Of a DNA stretch of 64,000 bases, positions 3,058 to 15,583 are shown piece after piece. Origin of the DNA: Candidatus Thiodubiliella sp. GTDB taxonomy: Bacteria; Pseudomonadota; Gammaproteobacteria; PS1; Pseudothioglobaceae. The notes under the pieces were generated by a model. It was given only the letters and a program-made list of their open reading frames with translations, was not told where the DNA came from and did no database searches. A program made the position numbers and the translations under genes. Each line of letters opens with the position of its first letter. Within the stretch, counting starts at the first letter, position 1. The DNA lies in NCBI GenBank assembly GCA_029237605.1, contig JAQRGB010000001.1, forward strand, positions 1 to 64,000. Direction: 5' to 3'.

Positions 3058-3666
3058 AAATTATATAATAAATTTTAATTACAAAAGTATCATATACTCA
3101 AAAATTAGATAGCTAGCAGACTCATTAGTTGCTTTTATGCAAGTGTTAGGATTACTAGAATAAGATACTAGCAGTATAATGTAATAACTCACAAAATATT
3201 AAAATTAAAAACTAAGATAAAGCTGATTTATTGTGGCGTAAGTATATATTTTTACCAGGTACTGTTGATGTGTGATAGGCCATTAAAAGAATTAATTTGA
3301 CATATTTTTTTAGGTGTATTCTGAGTAAAAAAACCGTTCAATAATTTTAAAATATTTTAATTTAATTAAAAAAGATATCTATAAATATGTATACAATCGT
3401 CAAAACAATAATTAATTATGCAATTATATGAACTTATAAAAACCACTAAAAGATATGATTTAACAATTTTTAACAGAAAAGATTGATAGAATGTAATAAT
3501 TTTTTGTTAAGAAAAAAGACAAAACGTCAAATTCTTTAATTTTAATTCGTTAGTGATTGGAGATGTTTAAAAAGATAACCCTTAGTCGTCAACCAATAAA
3601 GTAAAGAATTATTAGAGTTGACTAAAATCAAAATAGAAGAAGAAATAGAACGTTATTAATTGTAGT
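3058..3666. other. Long AT-rich stretch without a recognisable gene
   Basis: About 610 nt between panB and panC. It is very AT-rich, with stops in all frames; the longest hint is a short frame of about 20 codons beginning near 3418. No tRNA, convincing terminator or repeat was seen. It may be the remains of a lost gene, but no residual protein similarity was recognised. Confidence 0.5.
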
Positions 3667-10846: not shown

Positions 10847-10922
10847 TCCTCGATAGCTCAGTTGGTAGAGCAACGGACTGTTAATCCGTTTGTCGCTGGT
10901 TCGAGCCCAGCTCGAGGAGCCA
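10847..10922 (+). tRNA. tRNA-Asn (anticodon GTT)
   Basis: A complete 76-nt cloverleaf including encoded CCA. The acceptor TCCTCGA pairs with TCGAGGA, the D-loop has AGCTCAGTTGGTAGAGC, the anticodon arm ACGGA-CTGTTAA-TCCGT has GTT at 10880-10882, and the T arm has GGTTCGAGCCC. Discriminator base is G. It is the left neighbour of the accessory island, a common integration site. I looked for a second copy of its 3' end further right in the island and did not find one. Confidence 0.97.
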
Positions 10923-11106
10923 AATTCATAAATTGTAATTAAAAAACGGTTTTAATTATAGTTTATACATTTGCTTAATTCATACAAATTTTTAAATTAA
11001 TTTAAAAATTTTATGATGAAAATAAGCAAAAAACTAACACTTAAAGACCTCTGCAAGCATCTTGTATGTCTTTATTCGTCCGCTCAAAGTATTGCTATTA
11101 AAGAAA

Positions 11107-11360
11107 AGTTACCCCTATCCGTAATTAGTTACCCCCATCCGCAATTAGTTACCCTTTTAATTAAAAACAACAAATACAATCAACTTAAAAACTTTGTTTT
11201 AAAGGTATTAAAAAAGAAAAGTTACCCTTTATCCGTAATTAGTTACCCTTTATCCGTAATTAGTTACCCCTATCCATATTTAGTTACCTTTTATCCGCAA
11301 TTAGTTACCTTTTTACCCGCATTTAGTTACCCTTTATCCGTAATTAGTTACCCCAACCGC
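11107..11360 (+). repeat. Iteron-like direct repeat array (about ten copies)
   Basis: Direct repeats of 20-22 bp with consensus AGTTACCCTTTATCCGTAATT (here split as AGTTACCC / TTTATCCGTAATT). Copies begin at 11107, 11127, 11147 (degenerate), 11220, 11241, 11262, 11282, 11303, 11325 and 11346 (partial). A spacer of about 57 bp splits the array 3 + 7. The spacing is close to two helical turns, and the array lies about 90 bp upstream of a Rep_3-like initiator gene. This is the arrangement of an iteron-controlled plasmid origin. The array happens to stay open in one frame (11013-11402). Confidence 0.8.
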
Positions 11361-11451
11361 TTGAAATGTGTTGCTACTAAGCCGAAAAAAAATTTTCCTT
11401 AAACTACTACAAATTATTTAAAAAATTAGTACTAAAGCAGAGGGTGTTGTC

Positions 11452-12446
11452 ATGAGTAATACAAGAATATTAACGCCAATTGACAGAGAAAGAACAATTG
11501 ATGCGTTAGCTCGAAATAATAATATTATTAAATCTTTGTTTCATTACTACAAACAAATCACATTCTTAATAATATCATTAGCAATTCAAAAAATAAAAGC
11601 TGGCGCTCATCAAGGCGGACTAGTAGTTATTACAAGACCAGAAATTCAATCTTTAATGCAAGGAAATGACGCCAAAATTGGAATTAATAAATTAATAAAT
11701 TAATCAAATCAATCAGATCAGATTTAGAGATTCACAACTTTTTTAACCTTTACAGCCCAAACTCAGGATTAAAGGATATAAGACAAGGGTTAATTCAAAA
11801 AACAGCGCTTACGAAGGATTTGTTTGGAGGTATGATAATTCACTTTTACGAAAACATGTTTGATGTCTTTAAATCTCAAGAAAACTACACAATTCAATCT
11901 CTTGACGAATTAAGAAATTGCAAAGAAAATCAGACAACAATTATTTACACACTAACACAGCCTTACGCTAAACCACAGTCACCTAACTTAAGCCTTAATA
12001 TTTTAGAGTTAAGGGTTTATTTACGAATTTCTGATGATGCTTATACAGCGCCAAAAACTTTAACAATGAGAATTAAGAAAATTTGCCAACAAGTGTCAAA
12101 TAAAATAGATATTAATCTATCAGTATTACCAGTAAAAAGAAACGGAACAACTGGTGTAACTATCGGATATCAATTTCATTCTAAATTCAAAAATGCTAAA
12201 ACAGTAAAGGTTGAGGGTACAAAGGTTATTAAATCAAAACCAATTGGCATCCGCCAACAATTATCTGATTGGGGTGTAAGTAAAAAACAAATTGATACAT
12301 GGATTGCTAATTTAGACACTAAAACAATTAACGATGCAATCAAGCAAACACTTAGTCGGTCAGAGCACAAAGGCAATAGATCGAATTCTGGTGGATATAT
12401 TTATTCAATATTAGGTGATGGAAAATCACTTGAATTAACAAAATAA
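11452..12446 (+). CDS. Rep_3-like plasmid replication initiator, frameshifted
   Basis: Two adjacent frames form one protein. The first (11452-11703) starts MSNTRILTPIDRERT. The second is open from about 11691 and ends at 12446, reading LIKSIRSDLEIHNFF onward. A slip of one base in the TTAATAAATTAATAAATT stretch near 11690-11702 separates them. The second part resembles the winged-helix half of Rep_3/RepE initiators: LNILELRVYLRISDDAY, then MRIKKICQQVSNKIDINLSV and a basic stretch, then a C-terminal helix LSDWGVSKKQIDTWIANL. The iteron array upstream supports this. The assignment is from pattern memory, not a profile search. Whether the slip is real or an assembly error is open. Confidence 0.65.
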
Positions 12447-12465: not shown

Positions 12466-14274
12466 TTGCCGATTGTCATGCAGGGTCTTGGTGCACTTAA
12501 TGCTGCACAAGATACAATGCCCAATATCAAAGCAGTTATGACAGCGATTATTTTAGGCATTATTCCATTTTTAACGCTATTTTTACTTACGCCACTTTGG
12601 GTTAAAGCTTTAAAATTTATGACAGGCTCACTGCTTTGGCTTGCTACTTGGGGCATTATGATGGCAGTAATGCACACTGCTACGATGGATCAAGCAATGA
12701 CAGTGCTTAGTGATATTGCTATTAATAAAATTGGGCTTGATGCTTTTATGTTGGCACAAACAGACGGCGTAAAAGCGCTGATGTTTTTTGGCAAAATGCA
12801 ATCGAACTCATTGATGATGGCAACTGCCATTGCTATTGCAGTTTATGGCTTTGGCTCCTACGCCATGACAGGTATCGCCCAAGGTCAAGCACAAAATATG
12901 CAACACATGGGTGAGGGTGCTGCACAACAAGCACTCACGCCTGAAGGTAGAGCAGGCGTTAGAAACTCAATAATAAGTGGTGTTGCAAGTGAGGCATCGG
13001 TATCTAATGTACCACCTGAAGGATTATCATCTGGCGGTTGGGCCAGAGATACAGGTTCAGAAGCAATAGTGCAAAAATCTATGGGTCAAACTGCCATGGA
13101 TGTTGGCACTGGTCAACAAACCAGTCTTGATGCTAATCAAGCGATAGGTCAATTTAATGAATCTAGTAAAACTGGGCAAGGTCAATCTTATCAAGATTTT
13201 ACCAACATGACAGGCACTCCAATGACAGATAACGCCACTTCTCAGGCTTATGCCAAAACCAACCAAGGGCAAGCAGACGCTAAATTATTAAATGAAATGC
13301 AAACACTACAAGGTGCAGGTGACTCTCAAGCAGGGGCATCACTCTTTGCTGCATCAAATGGCGAGCAATTTGCAAAGTTGGATAAACTCCACAATATAGC
13401 AGAACTCAAAGGCATGGATTCAAGTTCACCAGAAGACTTGATGAGTATTAATGAAGACATGGCCAACAACAACGGCAACATCAGCATGACAGGACAGCAA
13501 ATATTTGCCAGCCCGCTTGCTGGTAAACTTGATGATCAACAGTTGCAAGATATTAACAACAATTGGAGCACGCCAATGGCAGTAAGACCAGGGTTTAATC
13601 CTGATGGCGGCATTAAAGATGCTCAAATTGGCACGCACACTGATACCAGCTTTACTCAAAATGCCACTCAAGAAAATAAACACACTGTGGACACCAGTGA
13701 TGTTAACCGTGATGATAATATTAAGTCTGCAGTAACCAGTGTTCAATCTGGCACTAATGTTGACACCAGTAGCCACTTTGATGACGCAACTATTAAAGGC
13801 TTAATGCAAAATACTCACAATGATCCACATTATCAAACCTTTGAAGATCGATTTAATCAGGCGAAAGGCGTTTCCAGCAATCCAACGGATGATGACAAAG
13901 CGGCAAGGGATAATATTATCAATGATGTGGCGTATGGGTTTAAGGATGTTGACAATAAAGAGGTTGAAAGTGATCAAATTAGAATACAAAATGAAACTTC
14001 TGGCACTATTGGCACACCTGGAAAAGGTTTATTGGGCTCATCTGCCTCAAATGTAAGTTCAAGGACATTATCTAATAATCAAGAAGAGCATACTCAAGTT
14101 GACACCACTCGAGGCAAAATTGCTGATATTTATGAGCAGTCTGATAATGCCTCACAATTTTTATCTAAGGTAAATGATTTTCATACGAATCAATATAACA
14201 AAATGCAAGAAACGAGCCAAGCAGGAGATTTGTCTAAAGACAATCCAACTGTTAAAGATAAGAAAAATTCATAA
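12466..14274 (+). CDS. TraG-like conjugation protein, N-terminally truncated
   Basis: A 602-aa frame whose first 150 residues are hydrophobic, with about three or four membrane segments. It includes ALNAAQDTMPNIKAVMTAII and LLTPLWVKALKFMTGSLLWLA, like the inner-membrane part of F-type TraG, the mating-pair stabilisation protein. The remaining 450 residues are polar, Gln/Asn/Ser/Thr rich and low complexity, as in the periplasmic tail of TraG. Full TraG proteins are usually over 900 aa, so the N-terminal membrane half is missing. The frame opens at 12439 with no good start (TTG 12466 is the first). It begins only 20 nt after the rep stop, which suggests a deletion junction. Confidence 0.65.
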   Translation: MPIVMQGLGALNAAQDTMPNIKAVMTAIILGIIPFLTLFLLTPLWVKALKFMTGSLLWLATWGIMMAVMHTATMDQAMTVLSDIAINKIGLDAFMLAQTDGVKALMFFGKMQSNSLMMATAIAIAVYGFGSYAMTGIAQGQAQNMQHMGEGAAQQALTPEGRAGVRNSIISGVASEASVSNVPPEGLSSGGWARDTGSEAIVQKSMGQTAMDVGTGQQTSLDANQAIGQFNESSKTGQGQSYQDFTNMTGTPMTDNATSQAYAKTNQGQADAKLLNEMQTLQGAGDSQAGASLFAASNGEQFAKLDKLHNIAELKGMDSSSPEDLMSINEDMANNNGNISMTGQQIFASPLAGKLDDQQLQDINNNWSTPMAVRPGFNPDGGIKDAQIGTHTDTSFTQNATQENKHTVDTSDVNRDDNIKSAVTSVQSGTNVDTSSHFDDATIKGLMQNTHNDPHYQTFEDRFNQAKGVSSNPTDDDKAARDNIINDVAYGFKDVDNKEVESDQIRIQNETSGTIGTPGKGLLGSSASNVSSRTLSNNQEEHTQVDTTRGKIADIYEQSDNASQFLSKVNDFHTNQYNKMQETSQAGDLSKDNPTVKDKKNS

Positions 14275-14322: not shown

Positions 14323-14676
14323 TTATTTGTCAGATAAAGAGTCGTACAACCCTCTACTCGTCCTACTCGCGTGGTTGTCATTATAATAATCATAAGATGA
14401 GGCTTTTGGGCTTTCTTCAGGCTTATCAACACCAACCTTAAACTGAGCAGCCAAATTATGACATACAATACCCAAAAGAACCAAAACGCTGGTGGCTATA
14501 TAAAACCCAGTAGACAAATGATTAATTGCAGCGAAAGCATCAACACCTATTCCAAGTGCAATCAGCACAAAACCACCTACCCGATAGTTAGCGTGTTTTT
14601 GTTGCTGGTTTTTCATACTCTCAGTTGGTTCAATTGCCTGAACTTGAGGATAAATAATTGCATTGTTCACTTTCAT
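14323..14676 (-). CDS. Small membrane protein of unknown function
   Basis: 117 aa with two predicted membrane helices, around GGFVLIALGIGVDAFAAI (residues 34-51) and ATSVLVLLGIVCHNLAAQF (61-79), joined by a short loop. A polar, Tyr/Asp/Ser-rich tail carries RTSRGLYDSLSDK. No family was recognised. A TATAAT-like hexamer lies at 14683-14688 on the same strand, only 7 nt before the ATG, so a very short or absent leader is possible. It lies in the plasmid-like island, opposite to the TraG fragment. Confidence 0.55.
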   Translation of the reverse strand: MKVNNAIIYPQVQAIEPTESMKNQQQKHANYRVGGFVLIALGIGVDAFAAINHLSTGFYIATSVLVLLGIVCHNLAAQFKVGVDKPEESPKASSYDYYNDNHASRTSRGLYDSLSDK

Positions 14677-14910: not shown

Positions 14911-15078
14911 TTAATGAGTAGTTGCAAGGCTACCAGCAATAACACCGTCAAATTTACCTTTTAGTGCGTGAAAATCACGAATGTCTTGGCCATAGACAAT
15001 ATCCCCTGCAGACACAATACAAAATCCTTTTTCACGAAATGCCTGATCAAGTAAGCCAGCGCCAGTGAATAAACTTAG
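14911..15078 (-). pseudogene. C5 cytosine-DNA methyltransferase N-terminal fragment
   Basis: Reads LLSLFTGAGLLDQAF (motif I, AdoMet binding), then IRDFHALKGKFDGVIAGS, and breaks exactly where the family has the catalytic Pro-Pro-Cys motif IV. The upstream end is cut by an adapter (15079-15120), so the true N-terminus may exist elsewhere. The MATIRL at the start of the naive frame is translated adapter. The break at motif IV has no adapter and looks like a real deletion joining the methyltransferase to the HTH remnant. Confidence 0.7.
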
Positions 15079-15120
15079 AAGTCGGATCGTAGCCATGTCG
15101 TTCTGTGAGCCAAGGAGTTG
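15079..15120 (+). other. Sequencing-adapter remnant (full adapter 2) in the island
   Basis: All 42 nt of adapter 2 between the methyltransferase fragment and the ribbon-helix-helix gene. Contiguity of the two halves of the island across this point is not assured. Confidence 0.95.
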
Positions 15121-15123
15121 TAG

Positions 15124-15387
15124 CTAAGTCATTTTATCTTGAGTGATATTATCAAACCCTAATAAAAACATTTTCATTTCTTTTACCCTTTCTTGGCTGA
15201 CTGCAAAAGAACGTTTTTTACCATCAGCACTAATGGCTTTAAACTGATAATTGTTGCCACTCATTATCTCTTTAAGTGCAGTATCAATTAAATTTTTAAT
15301 GCTTATATTTTTAGTAAAAGCTTTAATTTTTAATTGCTTTATCTCCTCATCAGATAGACAAGAGGTACGTGCTGCATTCCCTGTCAT
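15124..15387 (-). CDS. Small ribbon-helix-helix-like protein
   Basis: About 87 aa from ATG 15387. A short N-terminal strand RTSCLS is followed by DEEIKQLKIKAFTKNISIKN and LIDTALKEIM, the helix-loop-helix pattern of ribbon-helix-helix DNA-binding proteins such as antitoxins and plasmid partition or mobilisation accessory factors. The C-terminal half, with GKKRSFAVSQERVKEMKMFL, is not recognised. An upstream TTG at 15399 is possible. It overlaps the coiled-coil gene upstream, suggesting coupling. No toxin partner was recognised. The stop lies 4 nt from an adapter, so the end may be artificial. Confidence 0.5.
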   Translation of the reverse strand: MTGNAARTSCLSDEEIKQLKIKAFTKNISIKNLIDTALKEIMSGNNYQFKAISADGKKRSFAVSQERVKEMKMFLLGFDNITQDKMT

Positions 15388-15583
15388 TTTTTTTATCAAT
15401 TCTTTTGAAAGTATTTTTGCTGTCTAGCGAGTTTCCAGACTCTATTTCTTTCCAAAGATTATCTACCTCTTGTCTGAGTTTGTTAATTTGTGTTGTAAGA
15501 ATCTTACCCTCAGATGCGATATCTTTGTCCATATTTTGAATTTTTAGTTTAGTTTTTTGTAATTTCACTAATTGTTTTTTCAT
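15350..15583 (-). CDS. Small coiled-coil protein of unknown function
   Basis: 77 aa, highly charged, with heptad-like spacing across LVKLQKTKLKIQNMD and ILTTQINKLRQEVDNLWKEI, so a coiled coil is likely. Its end overlaps the ribbon-helix-helix gene by about 40 nt in another frame. An A8 run lies in the overlap, so the two frames might be one gene split by an indel. Function is unknown. Confidence 0.4.
   Translation of the reverse strand: MKKQLVKLQKTKLKIQNMDKDIASEGKILTTQINKLRQEVDNLWKEIESGNSLDSKNTFKRIDKKNDRECSTYLLSI

Follow-up and report, generated by a model that had tools for sequence, protein, structure and literature searches.

Probable remnant of an integrative conjugative element with its own replicon at tRNA-Asn

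In the stretch of DNA analysed here (the window, 64,000 nucleotides from Candidatus Thiodubiliella sp.), the region that follows the tRNA-Asn gene is probably the decayed left end of an integrative conjugative element (ICE) that carried its own iteron replicon and integrates at the 3' end of tRNA genes. We place the probability of this reading, including the coupling of the initiator gene rep to a leader frame, at about three in four. Related elements in other genomes carry F-type transfer genes, a relaxase, ParA, an integrase, and attachment (att) repeats derived from tRNA genes, and the window is therefore read as the remnant of an ICE with its own iteron replicon. The features of the locus are collected in Table 1.

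Table 1 Features of the element left end and the adjoining remnant in the window
Feature	Position	Strand	Remark
tRNA-Asn(GTT)	10847..10922	+	Element attachment site; the att core that recurs in relatives is its 3' half
Conserved left end of the element, with an AT-rich inverted repeat followed by the leader ATG at 11013	10923..11106	+	Alignment of nine tRNA-adjacent loci
Leader frame, 129 codons, through both iteron blocks; early stop in the window	11013..11402	+	Longer in relatives, overlapping the rep start
Iteron block 1: two full 20-bp copies and a half copy	11107..11166	+	
Iteron block 2: six full copies (21, 21, 20, 21, 22, 21) and a half copy	11220..11365	+	
Conserved AT-rich imperfect palindrome CTTAAACTACTAnAATTnTTTAAAAAnTTAGTAnTAAA, directly 5' of rep	11397..11438	+	Alignment of relatives
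rep pseudogene: frame broken by an 8-bp tandem duplication near 11690; TAA at 12444, CAA in relatives	11452..12446	+	
traG 3' part (TraG_N tail); an internal deletion joins it to rep	12475..14274	+	
ORF, also directly after traG in intact elements	14323..14676	-	
Fragment with a homologue within the G005 element (by eye, like a methyltransferase); truncated by the adapter insert	14911..15078	-	No Pfam match
Sequencing-adapter insert (assembly artefact)	15079..15120	+	
ORF with homologues within the G005, G011, and G022 elements	15124..15401	-	

The iteron array

The array consists of ten AGTTACC boxes, which start at positions 11107, 11127, and 11147 in the first block and at 11220, 11241, 11262, 11282, 11303, 11325, and 11346 in the second, so that the spacings are 20 and 20 bp, then 73 bp between the blocks, and then 21, 21, 20, 21, 22, and 21 bp. 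Eight of the ten are full iterons of 20-22 bp; at the third and tenth positions only half a copy is present. The second block had a TRF score of 189, and a scan of the window with the 20-mer consensus (at most three mismatches) returned three matches against 0.06 expected, all of them within the array. The box positions, the TRF score, and the consensus scan bear out the sequence-only reading of this DNA, which had described about ten direct repeats of 20-22 bp upstream of a Rep-like gene; its division of the array into 3 + 7 also stands, while its gap of about 57 bp is restated as 73 bp from start to start. The full-length Rep homologues of relatives likewise have iterons upstream. The locus thus has, next to rep, helically phased direct repeats of about 20 bp, as iteron-type theta replicons do. 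The iterons of some relatives resemble a DnaA box (TATCCACA, by eye) and those of others do not, and the region is AT-rich throughout. We infer that the palindrome in front of rep is a candidate operator or promoter.

Intact relatives and their integration sites

The same junction recurs in relatives, where iterons and rep lie directly after tRNA-Asn in G005, G011, and G090. Three further genomes (G003, G004, and G006) have the same left end after tRNA-Asn, with the contig ending shortly beyond, and the tRNA-Asn site is empty in G001 and G002. Other tRNA genes are also used: iterons and rep follow tRNA-Phe in G022 (contig 110) and lie about 1.2 kb after tRNA-Ser in G012. The att repeat, the 3' half of tRNA-Asn, was found again at the far end, 68.7 kb away in G011 and 12.0 kb away in G090, and both of these att-bounded elements sit in single-contig chromosomes. 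Transfer genes and an integrase lie between the att repeats of G011, and the G022 element encodes TraC, TraE, TraH, TraG, a TrwC relaxase, a TrwB-like coupling protein, ParA, and an integrase. Taken together, the relatives have a complete transfer system with relaxase (TraC, TraE, TraH, TraG, TrbI-like, TrwC, and TrwB-like), an integrase, and attachment repeats of the tRNA at either end.

The integrated replicon proposed earlier beside tRNA-Asn is therefore supported by the same junction in relatives, although the element is not an integrated plasmid, as had been suggested, but an ICE that survives in the window only as a remnant, much of its interior having been deleted. Such a replicon had also been called unexpected in a compact symbiont chromosome; this holds for the present genome but not for the family, which is recurrent in bivalve symbionts.

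Several further arrangements were observed at these loci. In G011 (locus L048, about 1700-2720), a second, decayed iteron/rep copy lies outside the far att repeat and is followed by an endonuclease I gene; two elements have left their remains in tandem at this site. Intact elements also have an endonuclease I (EndA) family gene directly after rep (L009, 4931-5635; L011, 8937-9644), with a Pfam match for the L009 copy. In G003 (contig 48; L078 and L089), the same left end after tRNA-Asn is followed by unrelated iterons (TTCCGCCTCTTTGGCATAC) and another rep start, and either exchange or divergence has altered the rep/iteron module behind the conserved left end. The G005 element (L010, 10516-10553) has an inverted pair of window-type iterons (AGTTACCC) downstream of rep, its own type being AGTTACAC; the pair is possibly a relic of another element.

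The Rep protein family

The Rep proteins of these elements belong with the Rep_3 initiators (PF01051/PF21205), where they are placed by three comparisons. Rep3_C was matched in one relative (L008) with 25.1 bits against a Pfam cut-off of 21.1, the profile match between the family and mini-F RepE had an E value of 6.5e-4, and hhalign of the family against eight Rep_3 plasmid proteins and the G021 protein gave 97%. An AlphaFold2 model built from eight sequences had a mean pLDDT of 59, with residues 148-241 confident. These residues aligned with RepE (1rep) at Z = 12.1 and an rmsd of 2.0 over 91 residues (VIA-align), and the model aligned with R6K pi (2nra) at Z = 11.1; the predicted central domain thus matches the second winged helix of the RepE / R6K pi type. 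Rep3_N fell below the Pfam cut-offs in the family, with none in the genome of the window and with low model confidence in that part, and it was detected in the distant relative G021. The earlier proposal of a Rep_3-like winged-helix initiator is accordingly supported for the central domain, both by the profile searches and by the predicted fold.

Searches of PHROGs and NCBIfam returned weak matches only, namely one unnamed PHROG and RepM, the latter scoring 25 bits where the cut-off is 250. No close relative, and no match at useful scores, came from the plasmid, phage, and viral collections, and we agree with the earlier note that the replicon belongs to no named plasmid group. Among 369 sampled genomes of the class, no relative was found outside the symbiont family, and the element family was found only in this symbiont family. 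Repeats and initiators co-vary: G003, G098, and G022-Phe combine other repeats with other or more distant Rep proteins.

A leader frame runs through the iterons up to rep

A reading frame of 113 to 199 codons is open through the iterons up to rep in eight loci (G005, G011, G090, G003, G022-Phe, G022-C42, G012, and G098), and in all eight its stop overlaps the rep start, at +4 (ATGA), +8, or +11 relative to the rep ATG. The leader frame has no stop over 336-531 nt, whereas most other frames have 7 to 22, and dinucleotide shuffles left it open in 0 of 1000 cases per locus. No comparable frame was found in eight Rep_3 plasmids of other bacteria or in the integrated replicon of G021, where the longest was 42 codons.

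The differences between leaders are spread evenly over the three codon positions, with no excess at third positions, and dN/dS is about 0.8 in the first 33 codons; neither measure gave a sign of selection on leader residues. It follows that the openness of the frame is kept while the residues are free. We also considered an ordinary protein gene containing repeats and rejected it, as the residues change with the iterons and third positions show no excess. A scan for promoters and terminators gave no more than chance, with no clear promoter.

A translated leader that couples ribosomes to rep is the simplest reading of this arrangement. We lean, by a little, toward the wider proposal that tRNA-targeting ICEs keep their iteron origin inside a translated leader whose stop overlaps the rep start, and that the passage of ribosomes would be selected rather than the peptide. 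Rep synthesis, transcription of the origin, and binding of Rep to the iterons would then form one circuit, which would persist while iterons and Rep change together. A less likely alternative is that the frame is untranslated and that common descent, together with selection on the repeats as DNA, has kept it open incidentally. The lack of a third-position preference fits this alternative, as do the 20/21/22 spacing order inherited among AGTTAC-type loci, a test for stop-avoidance at one iteron position that was not significant (p = 0.29), and the leader start of G005, which is frame-broken although rep is intact. However, G003 and G098 (AGGCGGAAGTTTTGTGCAACCT) have unrelated iterons, spacers, and lengths, yet keep the leader arrangement with the same frame ending at +8 of rep. 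Moreover, if substitutions fell at random at the observed divergence, the frame would stay open with a probability of only 0.0003 to 0.02 for most pairs, and length changes preserve the frame, the gap between iteron blocks being 73, 100, or 118 bp in most loci, values that are all equal modulo 3.

At L009 (about 3070-3300; G022 contig 42), GGCTAC-type iterons precede both the leader and the AGTTAC-type array, and the frame is open across the joint; this leader seems to be recombinant.

The rep gene of the window is a pseudogene

While relatives have a single rep frame of about 400 aa, the gene in the window is split between two frames (11452-11703 and about 11680-12446), and it is therefore a pseudogene here, which corrects the earlier description. 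Alignment with the G022 copy revealed the 8-bp tandem duplication AATTAATA and the change of CAA to TAA near the end. Homology to rep stops at about 12477 and homology to traG starts at about 12475, giving a rep-traG fusion in which about 85 C-terminal Rep residues are missing. Apart from the left end and part of traG, the window keeps a few further ORFs in common with the G005 element. Neither an integrase nor the right attachment repeat was found in the window, and TraC is absent across the whole genome. As judged from its sequence, this rep copy is inactivated, being frame-broken and truncated, with most of the ICE deleted.

It is improbable that the gene still functions and that faulty assembly produced both the frame break and the junction of rep with traG. 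Assembly quality is low, the break sits in a short AT-rich repeat, and the remainder of the frame is open for 251 codons, all of which would suit such errors. Against them stand three separate lesions (duplication, nonsense codon, and 3' truncation), the loss of nearly all transfer genes from the genome, and the early end of the leader frame in the window.

Assembly artefacts

The adapter contamination suspected earlier is real: a 20-base sequence, which we take to be a BGI/MGI read adapter, occurs in 132 exact copies genome-wide, and a second adapter type is also built into the assembly. Sites in the window are 864, 1724, 2216, 3706, 4269, 15079, 26687, 27924, 31379, 41039, 42328, 49766, 61897, and 62417, in addition to the window start. 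Several adapters lie inside genes (obgE, proB, folK, and panC by eye), and nearby genes look truncated for technical reasons.

That faulty assembly attached an independent iteron plasmid to the chromosome, a reading raised earlier and one to which the many adapters, including that at 15079 inside the remnant, lend some colour, is very improbable, because the same tRNA-Asn/iteron/rep junction occurs in independent genomes, two of them single-contig chromosomes, and both flanks of the 15079 adapter match the same G005 ICE with about 840 bp missing between them. The 15079 site is the nearest to the array and no adapter copy lies between 4300 and 15078; the iteron/rep junction was therefore not made by an adapter join.

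A model for intact members

The order observed in intact members is tRNA, leader, iterons, palindrome, and rep. An intact element would integrate into the 3' end of a tRNA gene, so that the tRNA is followed by the iteron origin, the initiator of about 400 aa, the F-type transfer system, the relaxase, ParA, and the integrase. By its fold and layout, and by analogy with known iteron plasmids, the excised circle would replicate like an iteron plasmid, with Rep monomers binding the iterons and opening the origin for theta replication, while excess Rep may pair origins or block transcription. The layout further suggests that a ribosome ending the leader could restart on rep by translational coupling. 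A translated leader requires the rep transcript to start upstream of the iterons, and Rep bound there would therefore block its own synthesis, an autoregulation acting on the transcript that encodes it. In the window, none of this origin, leader, and Rep mechanism can work any more.

Chemosynthetic bivalve symbionts, whose genomes are often described as heading to reduction, thus host recurrent conjugative elements that bear replicons and range from intact to decayed. Repeats in the rep/iteron module are replaced behind a tRNA-proximal left end that stays the same, and the elements therefore offer natural material for studying the exchange of partners between initiators and iterons. Should the leader be translated, it would form with the origin and rep a control unit absent from the Rep_3 plasmids compared.

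Comparison with known systems

The family resembles the Rep_3 / RepE-type iteron plasmids (mini-F RepE, R6K pi, and Acinetobacter RepM) in its upstream direct repeats of 20-22 bp and in the second winged helix of its initiator. However, its Rep proteins share less than 25% identity with those of Rep_3 plasmids and have, at about 400 aa, an extra helical C-terminal part. Compared with the eight Rep_3 plasmids, only the present family has its iterons inside an open leader frame. The integrated replicon of G021 (L059, 3472-8295) is likewise tRNA-adjacent, lying at tRNA-Lys, and has 21-bp iterons (TGGGAGCAAAAACATCATAGT), a clear Rep_3 initiator (Rep3_N, 48.6 bits; Rep3_C, 37.6 bits), and a downstream ParB-like gene (by eye), but it differs in that ParA precedes the iterons and no leader frame reaches rep.

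Among mobile elements, SGI1 is integrated and replicates as a plasmid via its own rep and iteron oriV; its Rep is of the RepA_C type, its four iterons of 17 bp lie downstream of rep, and it uses a helper IncC plasmid (PMC7433901). The present family has instead a Rep_3-type Rep, about ten iterons of 20-22 bp upstream, and self-encoded transfer genes. The Pseudomonas ICEs pKLC102 and PFGI-1 have a plasmid-like oriV with repeats and Par genes, the repeats of PFGI-1 being 46 bp long and accompanied by no Rep protein (PMC2647930). They are alike to the present family as integrated conjugative elements with a plasmid-like origin, but the replication genes are not homologous. Neither these elements nor iterons lying within a leader frame were found described in a search of the open literature, which was not exhaustive. 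Mobile elements that integrate and bring along a plasmid replicon are thus already known, and what sets the present family apart is the combination of a Rep_3-type initiator, upstream iterons, self-encoded transfer, and a leader running through the origin.
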